Positions 13,586 to 29,353 of a stretch of DNA of 32,705 bases are shown here, piece after piece. Source of the stretch: Nanohaloarchaea archaeon B1-Br10_U2g19. Its GTDB lineage: Archaea; Nanohalarchaeota; Nanosalinia; Nanosalinales; Nanosalinaceae. The stretch's first letter is position 1; each line of letters starts with the position of its first letter. The DNA is taken from the NCBI GenBank assembly GCA_001563905.1, contig LKMO01000007.1:1-32705 (forward strand), in the 5' to 3' direction. The notes beneath the pieces were generated by a model. The model was given only the letters and a program-made list of their open reading frames with translations. It was not told where the DNA came from and did not search any database. A program made the position numbers and the translations under genes.

Positions 13586-15274
13586 TCATATATTTTTCTT
13601 TATCTTCTCCGCTAGTTTGGGTCCTATACCTTCAATATCTGTAAGTTCTTCTTTACTTAGTTCTCTGAGCTCTGATAAACTATATTCTTCCATCAGTTCT
13701 TTTCTTTTTTCCTCTCCTATACCTTCGATTTCCTCAAGTACTGACTCTATTTTGTCTCTACGAGAGCTATGGTAGTTTACTGCAAAACGGTGTGATTCAT
13801 CTCTGGCAGCTGATAAAACAGTTTTAACATCTTCAGGTATCTCCGGATTTTTATGTAAACCAAGTATATCATCATCAGGTTTTACTATTGCAAAAACTGG
13901 TTTTGACCAGCCAGTTTCTCTCATCGCTCGGGCTGCAGCATTTAACTGTCCTCTACCACCGTCTATCAAAATCAGATCAGGTTCTTTACGTTTATCACGG
14001 CCTTCTATAGATCTTTTCGCACGCCATTTTAACAGTTCATACATGTTGTCGTAGTCATCGTTTTTCTCAACCAGTTTTTTCCGTCTATAATCTTTTTTCA
14101 GCGGTTTATCGTCTTCAAAGACAATATTTGATCCTACAACTTTTTTCCCGCCTGTATGACTTACATCAAAACATTCAATCCGGTTTATCTCCAGTCCAAG
14201 TATCTCCTCGAGTTTTTCCATCTTTGAGTTCTCTGTTTTCTCAGAGGTTTTTTCTGCAGATTCGAGTAATATACGGTCTCGTCCGTGTTCTGGTTCTCCA
14301 AAACTTACGCCTTCATCTTCCAACCAGCTTCTTATATCCGGGTCTTCGATCTCTACTTGAGTTGTAATCTGTTCGGGAAGATTATCTGTTGCATAAAACT
14401 GTTTTACAAAAGCTTCTAAGGCTTCTAAACGGCTTTCAGCCTGTTCGTTAAGCCTGTAAAATCTTTTATCTTTTATACTGTTTTTCTCAACAACTACAAG
14501 CCCTATTCTATCAAGTTTAGGGTTTACAGCTAGGACATGTTTTACACCTGTATCACGGATTTTCTTGTTGCCTCGAAGGTTCTTAAGATCATCTATATAG
14601 TCTCTGAGTGTTCCTGCACGTTCGAAACGTTTTTCTTCTGAGGCCTTAGACATTTTTTGTTCTATCTCTTCTAGAAGGTTAGAAGAGCTGTCTTGGAAAA
14701 ACTGTTTAGTCTTTTCTACTTTCTCTCTGTACTCTTTTTCACTTATTTTCCCTACACAAGGTGCAGAACAGATACCCATCTGGTAGTCTAGACATGGGCG
14801 GTCTCTTCCTGAAAACTTTCTATCAGAACAGCCACGAACACCGTATATATCACGTACGGCTTTTATAGCGTTTTCAACCCGTCTCATCTCAGTGAACGGC
14901 CCGAATACTGTAGAGTCCTCATTTGGATCTCTTGTAGCATTTATACCGGGAAACTTGTGAGAAGTTATCTCGATTACAGGATAGCTTTTACCATCTTTTA
15001 ACCGTATATTGTATTTTGGCTGGTATTTTTTGATCAAGTTAGCTTCCAACAGCAATGCTTCTTTCTCATCCTGTGTTGTTCGATGGTCAAGTCTGTCTGC
15101 TTTTTCCACCATCTTCTCTATCTGAACAGTCCGTGGATCTGTATAAGAACGAAGCCGATCTCTTATATCAACAGCTTTACCTACATAAAGCGGTACCTCT
15201 TCTTTACGGAAAATATATACTCCGGGTTCCGCAGGTTTCTCTTTTAACTTTGATCTAAGCTCGTTTTTTTCCAT
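13586..15274 (-). CDS. uvrC: Excinuclease ABC subunit C
   Basis: A 562-residue UvrC, the dual-incision nuclease of bacterial-type nucleotide excision repair. The N-terminal GIY-YIG domain (GVYIF at 18-22, LYVGKAVDIRDRLRSY) makes the 3' cut. A cysteine cluster follows (GCSDRKF, PCLDYQMGICSAPC), then a UVR motif (SKASEEKRFERAGTLRDYI) that contacts UvrB. The C-terminal RNase H-like domain (CFDVSHTGGKKVVGS, DLILIDGGRGQLNAA) makes the 5' cut, and helix-hairpin-helix repeats (EGIGEEKRKEL, EGIGPKLAEKI) end the protein. The length is slightly short but no domain is missing. The start ATG is four bases after the uvrA stop, so the two form an operon. Confidence 0.96.
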   Translation of the reverse strand: MEKNELRSKLKEKPAEPGVYIFRKEEVPLYVGKAVDIRDRLRSYTDPRTVQIEKMVEKADRLDHRTTQDEKEALLLEANLIKKYQPKYNIRLKDGKSYPVIEITSHKFPGINATRDPNEDSTVFGPFTEMRRVENAIKAVRDIYGVRGCSDRKFSGRDRPCLDYQMGICSAPCVGKISEKEYREKVEKTKQFFQDSSSNLLEEIEQKMSKASEEKRFERAGTLRDYIDDLKNLRGNKKIRDTGVKHVLAVNPKLDRIGLVVVEKNSIKDKRFYRLNEQAESRLEALEAFVKQFYATDNLPEQITTQVEIEDPDIRSWLEDEGVSFGEPEHGRDRILLESAEKTSEKTENSKMEKLEEILGLEINRIECFDVSHTGGKKVVGSNIVFEDDKPLKKDYRRKKLVEKNDDYDNMYELLKWRAKRSIEGRDKRKEPDLILIDGGRGQLNAAARAMRETGWSKPVFAIVKPDDDILGLHKNPEIPEDVKTVLSAARDESHRFAVNYHSSRRDKIESVLEEIEGIGEEKRKELMEEYSLSELRELSKEELTDIEGIGPKLAEKIKKNI

Positions 15275-15278
15275 TAGT

Positions 15279-18119
15279 TCAGTTAAGCAGTTTGGATAGG
15301 TATTTTCCGGTATAGGAATCAGGGTTTTGTGCTACTTCTTCAGGTGTTCCCTGTGCAACTACGGTTCCTCCGTTTTCTCCTCCTTTAGGTCCTAAATCAA
15401 TTATCTGGTCCGCACATTTTACCAGCTCCAGTTCATGTTCTATTATCAGTACGGAGTTACCGTTTTCAACCAACCGGTGTAGTACCTCTATCAGTTTTCT
15501 TTCATCTTCCCAGTGGAGACCTGTAGTCGGTTCATCAAGCATATACAGTATATCTTTGTTACGGACCTTACCCAGTTCTTCGGCAAGTTTGATTCTTTGT
15601 GCTTCTCCTCCTGAAACTGTTGTAGAGGGCTGACCAAGCTCCATATAGCCTAGACCTACATCTTTCAGTAGTTTCAACCGTCTTTTGATTCTTCTATCAT
15701 GTTCGAAAAACTCGTATGCCTCTTCTATCTCCATATCCAGGATCTGTGCGATCGATTTACCCCGGTATTTTACCTGTAAAGTCTCTTTGTTGTATCTTTT
15801 ACCGTGACATCTTTCACACTCTACGTAAACATCTGATAGAAAGTTCATCTCGATCTGGACAGTTCCCTGGCCTTTACATTCTTCACATCTTCCGCCTTTC
15901 ACATTGAAACTGAAACGTCCTTTATCATAGCCACGTTGTTTTGATAACTTGGTTTCTGCGAAAAGCTCACGGATATAATCAAAGACTCCTGTATATGTTG
16001 CAGGGTTAGAACGCGGTGTACGTCCTATAGGAGACTGATCGATCATACGTACAGACTCTATATCTTCTGTTCCTTCTACTTTCTTGTGTTCTCCTACTCT
16101 GACGGAATGGTTGTTGTTCAACTGTTTTGTCAGCTGGTTGTAAAGGATTTTATGCATTAAAGTAGATTTTCCAGAACCTGAAAGTCCTGTTATAGCCGTC
16201 ATTATGCCTAAAGGAATCTCTACGTCGATATCTTTCAGGTTATGTTCTTTTGCACCTTTAATCGTTATACTTCCTTCAGGCTCTCTACGTTCATCAGGTA
16301 CCGGAATCTTTTTTCTACCGTCTAGAAAGTCGCCTGTAACAGACTCTTTTTTACTCGAAATATCTTTCTGTGAACCGGTTCCTACAATTTCTCCACCTCT
16401 TTTACCGGGTCCTGGACCTATATCGATTATATTGTCTGCTCGCCGGATAGTGTTTTCATCGTGCTCTACAACAAGTAAAGTGTTTCCTAGATCTCTAAGG
16501 TTCTCAAGTGTATCAACCAGTTTGTTGTTATCGTGTCTATGCAATCCGATTGAAGGCTCATCAAGTACGTAAAGTACGCCTGTAAGACCTGAACCTATCT
16601 GGGTTGCAAGCCTGATACGCTGGGTCTCTCCCCCGGATAAAGTAGCTGCCTCTCTGTTGAGAGTTAGATAAGTTAATCCTACCTGTTTTAAGAATCCTAG
16701 ACGTTCTCGGACCTCTCTGATTATCTCTTTTCCTATCTCAAGTTCTCTACCTGAAAGCTCATCTTCCAAGCCTTTGAAGGCTTCATGAGCTGTATCTATA
16801 TTCATTTTATTTATCTCAGGAAGTGTAAGACCTGCTACCTCTACATTTCTTGACTGTTCGGAAAGCCTTGTCCCGTTACATGAAGGACAGGTATCATCAC
16901 GCATATACTCTCTAAGACGCTCTCTTACATTATCGCTGTTGGTCTGATGGAAACGCCGGTTAATATACTCTATTGCGCCTTCAAACTCTTTTTCTGTAAG
17001 ACCTGAACCTCTCATCTTCTCTACAGTATAATAAAGAGGTTCTTCTGTACCGTAAAGTGCTTGTTCTTGTATACTTTCATCAAGCTCTTCGAAAGAAGTA
17101 TTTACACTGATATCAAAGTGGTCTGCAAACGCATTAACTCCGCGTCTGTAATAATCTTTACTGTAATCCCAGAGAGTAACCGCTTGTTTCAAAGGTAAAG
17201 AAGGATCAGGTACAACAAGTTTTCTATCTGCGACCTCGGATTTACCGAGTCCATCACATTCGCTGCAAGCCCCGTAAGGACTGTTAAACGAAAAACTTCT
17301 CTGTTCTAGTTCCCTAAACTCTCTTTGGTTTCCTGGCTCGGAAAAACCTTCTGTAAACCGCATAAGTTTACGGTTCCCAACAGCTTCTACAGCATCTAAA
17401 CTGTTTTCCAGCTTTTTCCCTAGTTCAACATAGACTTTTCCGTTTGACTCTCCTATCGCCGATTCGATCGCTTCTACAAGCCTCGAACGTGAATCCGGAT
17501 CCGCTTTTATCCGGTCTATAACTATCTCAAAACTGTTTTCAGGTTCAGGATCTTCCAAAGTTAAATCATATTCTTTATCTGTAATTACCCGGGTAAAACC
17601 TCTTTCTTCCAGTTCTTCTATATATTCTGTAAAGTTTTCTGTTTTTACAGGTGAAAGTACTTTGATCTTTGTACCCTCAGGAAGCTCTAAGACCTTATCC
17701 GCTATATGGTCGGGAGTATTCTGTTCTACTATTTTCCCTGTCTCTGGAGAATACTGGGTTCCAACACGTGCATAAAGAAGCCGTAGATAATCATGTATCT
17801 CAGTTACAGTACCGACTGTAGATCTAGGAGTCGTACCCGAAGTCTTCTGTTCTATACTTATAGCAGGTGAAAGACCTTCAATTCTTTCAACCTCTGGTTT
17901 ATCCATCTGGTCTAGAAAGTTTCTTGCATAAGAAGAAAGTGATTCCATATAACGGCGTTGACCTTCTGCAAAAATTGTATCGAAAGCAAGTGTAGATTTT
18001 CCCGAACCGGAAAGACCGGTTACAACTGTTAGTTCTCCTCTTGGTATCTCAACATCTATATTTTTTAGATTGTTTTCCTTTGCACCGGTTACCTCTATAC
18101 TTTCTTTCTGTCCGCTCAT
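15279..18119 (-). CDS. uvrA: Excinuclease ABC subunit A
   Basis: A 946-residue UvrA, the damage-sensing ATPase that loads UvrB. There are two ABC ATPase halves, each with Walker A GLSGSGKS (the first at 35-42) and signature/Walker B blocks: [19 protein letters not shown] with [12 protein letters not shown], and [15 protein letters not shown] with [12 protein letters not shown]. Zinc-binding pairs are present ([17 protein letters not shown], and CEECKGQG with CERCHGKRY). The insertion domain with [21 protein letters not shown] is typical. It is full length with normal catalytic residues. It is divergent from uvrB with about 96 bases between them, so all three genes could be co-regulated. Archaeal UvrABC is generally viewed as acquired from bacteria. 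Confidence 0.97.
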
Positions 18120-18215
18120 TTAATCCCCTCTAATAACTCTCTGAAAAGAACTTATTTCCAGGTATGAATATGATGACAGGTTAACCATAAATGATTGGTC
18201 TTCGTTTTACTGGGC

Positions 18216-20189
18216 ATGAAAGAGTCCAAAAAATTCAATGTAAAAGCACCTTTTGAACCTGCAGGAGACCAAAGCCAGGCGATAGACAAGCTTTCAGAAG
18301 GTTTCAACCAAGGTATGGAAAAACAGACCCTTTTAGGGGTTACAGGTTCAGGTAAAACCAATACAGTTTCATGGACTATAGAACAGATACAGAAACCGAC
18401 ACTGGTTATTGCACATAACAAAACTTTAGCAGCCCAGCTCTACGATGAGTTAAAACAGCTTTTCCCCGATGCAGCAGTAGAGTACTTTGTATCCTACTAT
18501 GATTATTATCAGCCTGAAGCATACGTCAAAAACACAGACACCTATATAGGGAAAGATGCTTCGATCAACGAAGAAATAGAAAAACTTAGACACTCAGCTA
18601 CAAACTCTCTTCTTACAAGAGATGATGTAATTGTTGTAGCATCGGTTTCTGCAATATACGGTCTTGGTGACCCTGATTTTTACAGAGATCTAGCACTTGA
18701 AATCAGCAAAGATACAGACAAAACTAGAGACGATGTTATAGCCGAACTGGTTGATATACAGTATGAACGTAGCGATGAAGATTTCAAACAGGGAAAGTTC
18801 CGTCTTAGAGGAGACACACTCGATATATTTCCTATGTACTCACGTACTGCTTACAGAATCAGTTTTTGGGGGGATGAAATTGAGAAGATAACAGAGTTCA
18901 AACCTTTAGAAAACAAGACAGTAGAAAAAAGAGAAAACGTACTGATAAGACCGGCATCCCATTATTCAGCTCCTGATGAGAAACTAGAACAAGCTATAGA
19001 AGAGATAGAAGAACTTATGGAACAACGCATTGAACATTTCAAAGATATAGGCGATGAGGTCGCCGCCCAGAGAATAGAAGAGCGTACCAAGTTCGATATA
19101 GAGATGATAAAAGAAGTTGGATACTGTTCAGGGATTGAAAACTACTCAGTACATCTTTCTGACAGAGACTCTGGAGATCCGCCTTACACTCTTTTAGACT
19201 ATTTTCCGGATGATTTTCTTACGGTTATAGATGAGTCTCATCAAACGGTTCCACAGATCAAAGGACAGCATGCGGGAGACAAAGCGCGTAAAGAATCGCT
19301 TGTGGAAAACGGTTTCCGGCTGCCAACAGCTTATGACAACCGGCCTCTAACCTTCGAAGAGTTCGAAGAAAAAACCGATAAAACACTTTACATATCGGCT
19401 ACGCCCGCGGATTATGAAAAACAAGAGTCTGAACAGATAGTAGAACAGATTGTACGTCCAACATACTTGGTTGATCCTACTATAGAGGTCCGTGAGACCC
19501 AAGCACAGGTAGAAAATGTGATAGAAGAGATAGAAAAACGGGTAGAACGTGATGAGCGTACACTTGTAACAACGTTGTCTAAGAATATGGCCGAAAACCT
19601 CGCAGAGTTTCTACGTGATGCAGGTGTAAACGCAAAGTATATGCACCATGAAACCGATACACTTGAACGCCATGAAATTATCAGAAAACTGCGTCTAGGA
19701 GAGATAGATGTAGTTGTAGGAATCAATCTTTTGAGAGAAGGTTTAGATATTCCAGAAGTATCTTTAGTGGCTATACTTGAAGCTGATCAAGCAGGTTTTC
19801 TACGTTCAGAGACTGCATTAGTACAGACTATGGGCCGTGCAGCAAGAAACAAAGACGGTCATGTAATCATGTACGGCGATGAGAAAACAGATGCGATGGA
19901 AAACGCTGTAAGTGAAACCAAAAGAAGAAGGGAGATACAAGAAAAGTTTAATGAAGAAAACAACAAAGAACCGAAGACTATCGAGAAAAAGATAACAGAA
20001 TCAACTCTTCCAGGAAAAGAAAAAAAGAAAAATGTTACAAAAACAGAGTTCGAAAACTCATCAGCTGCAGAAAAACGTATTATCGAGTTACAGGAAGATA
20101 TGAAACAGGCAGCAGAAAACCTAGAGTTCGAACTGGCAGCAGAATACAGAGATAAAATCAAACAGATAAAAAAAGAAAACAGTCTATAA
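18216..20189 (+). CDS. uvrB: Excinuclease ABC subunit B
   Basis: A 657-residue UvrB, the helicase-like protein that verifies damage. Walker A GVTGSGKT lies at 41-48, the damage-probing beta-hairpin [12 protein letters not shown] at about 93-104, the DESH motif in [12 protein letters not shown], and motifs V/VI in [12 protein letters not shown] and TMGRAARN. The UVR domain ([20 protein letters not shown]) at the C-terminus binds UvrC. I set the start at the ATG at 18216, which begins KESKKFNVK as in the family and lies about 26 bases after an ACCATAAAT box. A TTG in frame at 18195 would overlap that promoter. It is divergent from uvrA-uvrC. Confidence 0.97.
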
Positions 20190-28261: not shown

Positions 28262-28471
28262 ATGTCGACAATCTACTTTATTGCAGGACTTTTAACAGGT
28301 ATTTTGCTGGGTGTAGGTGCCTCAATATTCTACTTACGTTGGAAGGTTAGAAACCAGTTAATGGGTATGCAGAACCAGATGGAGAGTATGATGGAGATGA
28401 CTGAGGATATGGGTCTCGCGGAGATAGAACAGGAAGGTAAAGAACAGGAAGATAAAGAAGAGGACAACTAA
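28262..28471 (+). CDS. Single-pass membrane protein with an acidic tail
   Basis: A 69-residue protein. Residues about 5-25 form one transmembrane helix with GxxxG-type packing (GLLTGILLGVGASIF), and a YLRWKVR basic flank fixes the tail in the cytoplasm. The tail is a Met/Gln-rich helix (NQLMGMQNQMESMMEM) followed by a run of Glu, Asp and Lys. A TTTTTATCG box lies about 26 bases before the ATG. Architecturally it is like small anchor proteins that recruit a soluble partner to the membrane. No family is recognised, and the stop is 6 bases from the convergent H2A-like gene. Confidence 0.55.
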   Translation: MSTIYFIAGLLTGILLGVGASIFYLRWKVRNQLMGMQNQMESMMEMTEDMGLAEIEQEGKEQEDKEEDN

Positions 28472-28477
28472 GTCTCT

Positions 28478-28840
28478 TTAGTTGTTTTCCTCTATTCTGT
28501 CAGCTGTTTTCTCCATCTCTTCTGAAATACTTCGAAGCTGTTCAACAAAGGCTTCTGTACGCGCGTTGTACTGTTCTTCAACTTCAATATTTCTTAGAGC
28601 TACTCTTAGATGAGACTCTTTAACCTTTGCAAGCATCTCTGCTTCGCTCATTGTGCTGTCGATAATCTCGTCCAAAAGCTCTGAAAGCACACAGTTAACA
28701 ACGTGAGGTACGTCTCCGTCTAATGTCTGATCTTCATCCATGTTCTCTCGGAATAGTCTTGCGATCCTTCCTTCTGAAAGCGCTAGATCTGAGTTTTCAA
28801 GCTGTCCATAATTTTTCGGTATAAGTTTCTCTAAGTCCAT
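28478..28840 (-). CDS. Histone-fold-like protein resembling the H2A/NF-YC type
   Basis: A 120-residue acidic protein. Residues 24-31 GRIARLFR, 45 P, 51-61 VLSELLDEIID and 77-84 HLRVALRN line up by eye, in order and with near-equal spacing, with human histone H2A (GRVHRLLR, P48, VLEYLTAEILE, HLQLAIRN). This gives helices alpha1, alpha2 and alpha3 of a histone fold, followed by an alphaC-like EEQYN and a 30-residue coiled coil. The L2 loop is two residues shorter than in H2A and lacks the K-T-R motif, and the surface is acidic, so DNA binding is uncertain. It differs from ordinary archaeal histones. It is the last of three minus-strand genes, 33 bases after the next. The alignment is from memory. 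Confidence 0.5.
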   Translation of the reverse strand: MDLEKLIPKNYGQLENSDLALSEGRIARLFRENMDEDQTLDGDVPHVVNCVLSELLDEIIDSTMSEAEMLAKVKESHLRVALRNIEVEEQYNARTEAFVEQLRSISEEMEKTADRIEENN

Positions 28841-28873: not shown

Positions 28874-29353
28874 CTATAGAAGCTTCATTAGATCTTCAAG
28901 AGATCCTTCGTTGTAGGACTGGTTCTTCAGAGACTTCATTACCTGGGGGTTTGGTAGTGTAGGATCTCTAGCCACTCTTCCGCAGGAGCCCATAGCTTCG
29001 TTAAAGTTAGCTTTGTAATGGTCTAAAGCTGTTTCTGCTTTTCTGCGTAAGGTTTCAACATCTATAGATTCTTCTCCTACCACTTGTTTTGAGGTGTACT
29101 CTGTAAGCTCTTCTCTTGCTTCTTCCAGTCTTCCAAGCATTTCTTCATGTCCTTCAAGTACATTAACGAAATACTGCGTCTCTTCTAAGACTCTTTCTCT
29201 ATCTACGGCGCCAGCATGTTCGAGAGAGCATTCTCCGTCAGTGGTGTGGTAGTAGGCGTCTATAGTTGATTCAAAACGGTAAGCTTCAGATATTAAGTAT
29301 TTTTGTGCACGTTCTGCGTCTTTAACGGTCTCGTATATATCTTCTAACTCCAC
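28874..29353 (-). CDS. Helical protein of unknown function
   Basis: A 159-residue, almost wholly helical acidic protein with three cysteines (about 42, 123 and nearby). Helix 1 is IYETVKDAERAQKYLISEAY, and a middle pair forms a likely coiled coil (VLEETQYFVNVLEGHEEMLGRLEE). A conserved-looking ETALDHYKANFNEAMGSCG segment and a Leu-rich end (GSLEDLMKLL) complete it. No family is recognised. It lies directly upstream of the H2A-like gene and is probably in the same transcript, so it is a candidate partner. The ATG at 29353 is the natural start. Confidence 0.55.
   Translation of the reverse strand: MELEDIYETVKDAERAQKYLISEAYRFESTIDAYYHTTDGECSLEHAGAVDRERVLEETQYFVNVLEGHEEMLGRLEEAREELTEYTSKQVVGEESIDVETLRRKAETALDHYKANFNEAMGSCGRVARDPTLPNPQVMKSLKNQSYNEGSLEDLMKLL

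Follow-up and report, generated by a model that had tools for sequence, protein, structure and literature searches.

What kind of protein is encoded by a short, strongly acidic reading frame of a nanohaloarchaeal contig, in which an H2A-like histone fold had been read by eye? The frame lies in the 32,705-nucleotide stretch of DNA analysed here, referred to as the window, and runs on the minus strand from an ATG at 28840 to a stop codon at 28478-28480. It specifies 120 amino acids with a net charge of -16 and a pI of 4.36; the protein is acidic, as had been noted, and its acidity goes beyond that of its host's other histones. We refer to this protein and its orthologues as family A. The gene and its parts are the following.

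28478 to 28840, minus strand: gene assigned as an acidic paralogue of coiled-coil (CC) histones, 120 aa plus stop (orthologues, dN/dS)
28742 to 28792, minus strand: alpha1, residues 17-33, with invariant R25, R28 and R31 (alignment, AlphaFold)
28703 to 28729, minus strand: L1 and the start of alpha2, residues 38-46, invariant QTLDGDVPH (alignment)
28643 to 28711, minus strand: alpha2, residues 44-66 (alignment, AlphaFold, Foldseek against H2A)
28574 to 28642, minus strand: L2/alpha3 equivalent, residues 67-89 (PF00808 match of an orthologue; an uninterrupted helix in AlphaFold)
28484 to 28573, minus strand: C-terminal coiled-coil helix, residues 90-119 (CC-histone alignment, heptad permutation)

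Family A orthologues (n=17, 65-85% identical) occur in 17 of the 19 genomes of one nanohaloarchaeal family, the carriers including Candidatus Nanosalina J07AB43, Nanosalinarum J07AB56, SG9 and M3_22. Comparison of the window gene with a same-genus orthologue gave a dN/dS of about 0.09, and these alignments demonstrate a real gene with a reading frame evidently under purifying selection. No orthologues were seen in the order's other families or in the other archaea searched. Genomes G011 and G018 carry no family A gene; a genus-mate, G016, has one. A viral origin or viral copies were rejected, as two scans of viral contigs found no relatives.

Searched alone against Pfam, NCBIfam and the PDB, the window protein returned nothing significant. 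The Pfam model for archaeal histones and NF-Y, PF00808, matched 11 of the 17 orthologues at E<=1, and in this HMM search, of the kind suggested in the original prediction, two orthologues exceed the curated cut-off of 21.4 bits, while the window protein scores below it. In an orthologue the match covers model positions 6-65 of 65 and residues 24-82 and runs through alpha3. All four H2A-type landmarks reported for the window protein (GRIARLFR at 24-31, P45, VLSELLDEIID at 51-61 and HLRVALRN at 77-84) are present in the order given, and both the invariant residues and the profile scores relative to shuffled sequences place them beyond chance. Residues G24, R25, R28, R31, P45, H77, R79 and L82 are invariant in 17/17 orthologues. 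As an H2A landmark HLRVALRN stands only in part: H77, R79 and L82 belong to the invariant set, but L78, V80 and N84 vary between orthologues, so that the match to its H2A counterpart, which we take to be HLQLAIRN, is by alignment partly accidental.

As judged from these profile matches, the classification of family A as a histone relative holds. Direct kinship with canonical archaeal histones was undetectable by either approach used: a canonical histone profile gave 4.3 bits on family A and 13.1 bits on a shuffled sequence, and profile-profile comparison with canonical archaeal histones detected no relationship. The link to histones therefore runs via Pfam and the CC histones. Since PF00808 recognises family A better than its relative family B, described below, family A may already stand in published histone lists.

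CC histones were described in 2024 (Schwab et al.), and one of them, HMfC, was shown to bridge DNA (PMC11390915). Each genome of the nanohaloarchaeal family encodes a second protein, family B, about 30% identical to family A and represented in the window's genome by G000:C19:22967-23305. The family B profile has matches in 88 of 297 genomes, many archaea having a single such gene. When the Methanothermus fervidus genome was searched, in which HMfB was 100% identical, the sole family B match was a third gene of histone type, located at 900 kb; this position fits Mfer_0945, that is HMfC. In the product of this gene, CC positions 32, 35, 45 and 49 are occupied precisely by R, R, R and K. Because the only match in M. 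fervidus thus carries the CC contact residues at their published positions, we identify family B with the CC histones, which makes the window protein a CC-histone paralogue.

The sequence relationship between the two families is detected in both directions. The family B profile matches the window protein at E=7.4e-12 over residues 13-119, and a nanohaloarchaeal CC-histone profile gives 33-45 bits on the 17 family A proteins, compared with at most 11.9 bits on shuffled or reversed copies. In the reverse search, family A recovers CC histones, both from its own genomes and from related ones, at 1e-8 to 1e-11. Profile-profile comparison (hhalign) of family A with nanohaloarchaeal CC histones reached 97% (E=1.3e-10, 107 columns), and a direct comparison with distant CC histones 48% (E=1.9e-4). 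In a phylogenetic tree family A is a single, long-branched clade (100/100) that groups with its own family's CC histones (88/94), although long-branch effects on this placement are possible. All 17 carriers also encode an ordinary CC histone. Together, the profile and tree results demonstrate common ancestry and identify family A as a diverged, lineage-specific paralogue of archaeal CC histones; the simplest reading would be that the gene was duplicated in the ancestor of the family and then changed rapidly.

The ordinary CC histone is followed by a conserved gene resembling an HTH-type regulator in 10 of 10 loci examined (L110-L119), where gene order is stable and includes a transporter gene upstream as well as phosphoesterase-like genes. 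One genome, G014, has two ordinary copies on different contigs (G014:C39:5196-5534 and G014:C43:1731-2069), which could reflect contamination or recent duplication.

The original prediction had placed the protein closer to eukaryotic H2A or NF-YC than to the usual archaeal histones. A weak H2A likeness was indeed recovered. A mixed profile of family A and its paralogue family B found eukaryotic H2A as its main PDB matches (best E 0.005). A separate family search gave a weak match to TAF12 (E 0.019). A Foldseek search with a model of residues 13-90 placed H2A chains almost throughout its top 50, none of them significant (best E 0.36); the superpositions on H2A cover alpha1-L1-alpha2, often at 0.9-2 A rmsd over 39-40 residues, and likewise lack significance. 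The nearest relatives, however, are archaeal CC histones by both profile and tree, and descent from H2A or NF-YC, or a special kinship with them, finds no support.

Three helices had been recognised in the sequence, and on this point the evidence is divided. PF00808 and the CC-histone profile both align through alpha3. In contrast, AlphaFold, working from 13 close homologues and with no control, predicts alpha1 (17-33) followed by a single helix that begins at residue 44 and continues unbroken through the rest of the construct, leaving no L2 (residues 13-90, mean pLDDT 87.6). A structure without three helices had been named as counting against the fold, and the model goes part of the way there. 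A full-length AlphaFold model and the fold search made with it were too poor for use and were set aside. The hydrophobic phase shift across L2 is 48 degrees in family A, as against 131-166 degrees in CC and canonical histones. The L2/alpha3 region is also about two residues longer in family A than in CC histones, and such an insertion, with the loop retained, could by itself explain the small shift; since the shift follows partly from the insertion, it is not independent evidence. Helix propensity at L2 did not separate the families.

The coiled-coil tail noted earlier was borne out. The C-terminal helix of family A matches the CC coiled coil in register, has a heptad pattern (permutation p=0.02) and is also present in the full-length AlphaFold model, and the alignment demonstrates that family A keeps the heptad helix of the CC type. 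In the CC class this helix has been proposed to join dimers into a tetramer, and the published criterion for the class is a confident predicted tetramer through it (PMC11390915).

The proposed DNA contacts of CC histones lie on the alpha1 face at R32, K35, R45 and K49 (PMC11390915). Family A keeps two of the four, R32 as R28 and K35 as R31. The other two are replaced, R45 by D41 and K49 by P45, and both replacements are invariant (17/17) and sit inside the invariant loop QTLDGDVPHV. The four-contact set is not strict, since the other nanohaloarchaeal CC histones keep three and have Y at position 49. The K-T motif of L2 is missing, as had been observed, although CC histones in general are also without it.

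Charge sets family A apart from the histones of the same cells. The histone fold carries -3 to -8 in the family A members listed, compared with -1 to -2 in CC histones of the same family. Over alpha1-L1 the values are -3/-4 in family A against +2/+3 in the accompanying CC histones, and the two canonical histones of the window's genome (G000:C14 and G000:C21) have whole-protein charges of -2 and +1. The acidity of family A goes beyond salt adaptation. Of the earlier suggestion of a salt-adapted histone variant, the kinship with histones stands, but salt adaptation is insufficient, since the same cells contain CC and canonical histones of far lower acidity. Overall acidity does not rule out DNA binding in archaeal histones (PMC13260811), and the invariant alpha1 residues R25, R28 and R31 could still bind DNA.

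The genes and junction that flank family A in the window are these.

28262 to 28471, plus strand: convergent small membrane-protein gene, a conserved neighbour (neighbourhood comparison)
28472 to 28477, no strand: junction from which the DUF378 gene is missing (neighbourhood comparison of 17 carriers)
28874 to 29353, minus strand: upstream gene, 159 aa, no family (family searches, homologue search)

A gene for a small DUF378 membrane protein lies directly downstream of family A on the same strand in 14 of 17 carriers, usually at a spacing of 39-65 b, and in these 14 it is the genome's only DUF378 copy. Neither the window's genome nor SG9 (L053) has it, and the DUF378 model does not recognise the gene at its place in J07AB56. 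In the window's genome the loss is clean (an example of the copy elsewhere is L043:10420-10653): the family A stop codon lies six bases from the convergent gene, which in other genomes comes after DUF378. From this linkage a shared transcript may be suspected; it does not define function, because DUF378 is dispensable. Genome G011, 92% complete, is also without DUF378. The upstream protein has a single homologue among 28 genomes, 34% identical and from a different genus (L125:1477-1977), which is also directly upstream of family A; a same-genus relative is without the gene. The products of 28874 and 29443 had been put forward for heterodimer prediction. Family searches detected no histone signal in either, so that a role for them as histone-fold partners finds no support, and no conserved neighbouring gene for a histone-fold partner was found beside family A. 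Elsewhere in the window, genes resembling uvrC, uvrA and uvrB are adjacent (13586-20189, by eye from sequence).

Family A could be an ordinary salt-adapted CC histone that bridges DNA like HMfC through its alpha1 arginines in molar KCl, its acidity being a halophilic adaptation. The invariance of those three arginines, the retained coiled-coil helix and the frequent negative charge of CC histones (PMC11390915) all fit this account. We nevertheless consider it unlikely, if the most serious of the competing explanations: the CC histone of the same cell keeps R45 and a positive alpha1-L1, salt drift would not explain D41 and P45 in every orthologue, and two CC-type genes have been retained in all 17 carriers. 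Slightly less probable again is that the protein is an ex-histone with a job outside chromatin, for example as an adaptor for the adjoining small membrane proteins, with alpha2 and alpha3 fused. The downstream DUF378 gene, the continuous helix of the AlphaFold model and the small phase shift point in this direction. The gene is conserved (dN/dS 0.09) even though DUF378 is missing from the window's genome and SG9, however, and the structural arguments are weakened by the L2 insertion, by the shallow alignment and missing control behind the model, and by the PF00808 alignment through alpha3.

A transcription factor of NF-YC/TAF or H2A type that pairs at promoters, or a protein mimic of DNA, is very improbable. 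H2A provides the best PDB profile matches and structural neighbours, TAF12 matches weakly, and an acidic surface would suit a mimic, but every H2A and TAF12 match is below significance, the C-terminal helix is a coiled coil of the CC type, and with no conserved partner gene nearby and CC histones as nearest relatives by sequence and tree, the earlier proposal of an NF-YC/TAF-like factor is disfavoured. We also considered dedicated mixed tetramers of family A and the ordinary CC histone, which would form asymmetric bridges in which one arm binds DNA and the other does not, or would switch bridging off. Such an archaeal hetero-histone system would be obligate, would have originated in a duplication inside the family and would have alpha2 and alpha3 fused, and we hold it to be doubtful, somewhat more so than the ex-histone.

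We favour, with a probability of roughly 0.55, the reading that family A is a variant of the CC histones with weakened DNA contact that serves oligomerisation and regulation, and probably controls or joins other histones instead of packing DNA on its own. In this variant the alpha1-L1-alpha2 part would form histone-type dimers, and the C-terminal helix would link these dimers as a tetramer, the role suggested for it in CC histones. Since the L1 contacts are lost, DNA binding would be weak or absent. If it mixes with the cell's ordinary CC histone, the resulting bridges might lack a DNA arm or have a weak one, and chromatin might be tuned in this way; alternatively, a homo-oligomer might bind a protein through the invariant QTLDGDVPH face. 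Chromatin tuning by one of these two routes appears most likely. Mixing is the least certain step, because archaeal histone paralogues that have diverged far do not always mix, as seen for MJ1647 and A3 of M. jannaschii (PMC10516927).

CC histones, including nanohaloarchaeal ones, are already published. In the papers examined we did not find a description of a lineage-specific acidic paralogue with replaced contacts, of its coexistence with an ordinary CC histone or of the DUF378 linkage, although the published nanohaloarchaeal CC histone may be either the window protein or its paralogue. A conserved protein that keeps the oligomerisation helix while DNA-contact residues are replaced amounts to a separation-of-function variant made by nature. 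With it one can put to the test whether control of DNA bridging in archaea works through the mixing of histone variants, in parallel to the variants of eukaryotes, and it indicates that a histone from a halophile can be acidic for more reasons than adaptation to salt.

Compared with known systems, family A is closest to the CC histones such as HMfC (PMC11390915), with which it can be aligned over its whole length as a histone fold followed by a C-terminal heptad helix, and whose R32 and K35 it retains in equivalent form. It differs from them in D41 and P45, in a strongly acidic histone-fold core, in some two extra residues at L2, and in its restriction to one nanohaloarchaeal family, where it coexists with an ordinary CC histone. 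MJ1647 of the Methanococcales (PMC10516927), compared here by description only, similarly combines a histone fold with a C-terminal oligomerisation extension and occurs alongside canonical histones; unlike in family A, its extension consists of two short helices, and MJ1647 bridges DNA. The canonical histones HMfA and HMfB, and G000:C14 and G000:C21 of the window's genome, belong with family A to the PF00808 superfamily, whereas family A is without the RKT...D motif of L2 and has a longer L1 and a coiled-coil tail. H2A shares with family A the GRxxRLxR motif, a motif resembling HLxxAxRN and the alpha1-L1-alpha2 geometry of the model, but family A is of different ancestry, has no basic tails, ends in a coiled coil and shows no separate alpha3 in its AlphaFold model (13 close homologues). 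Finally, the capstone histones (Stevens et al. 2020, PMC7776873) are likewise conserved paralogues with charge-altering substitutions that may modulate assemblies; capstones are of canonical length and carry their change in the dimer-dimer face, at position 49, whereas in family A it is the L1 DNA contacts of a CC histone that are altered.
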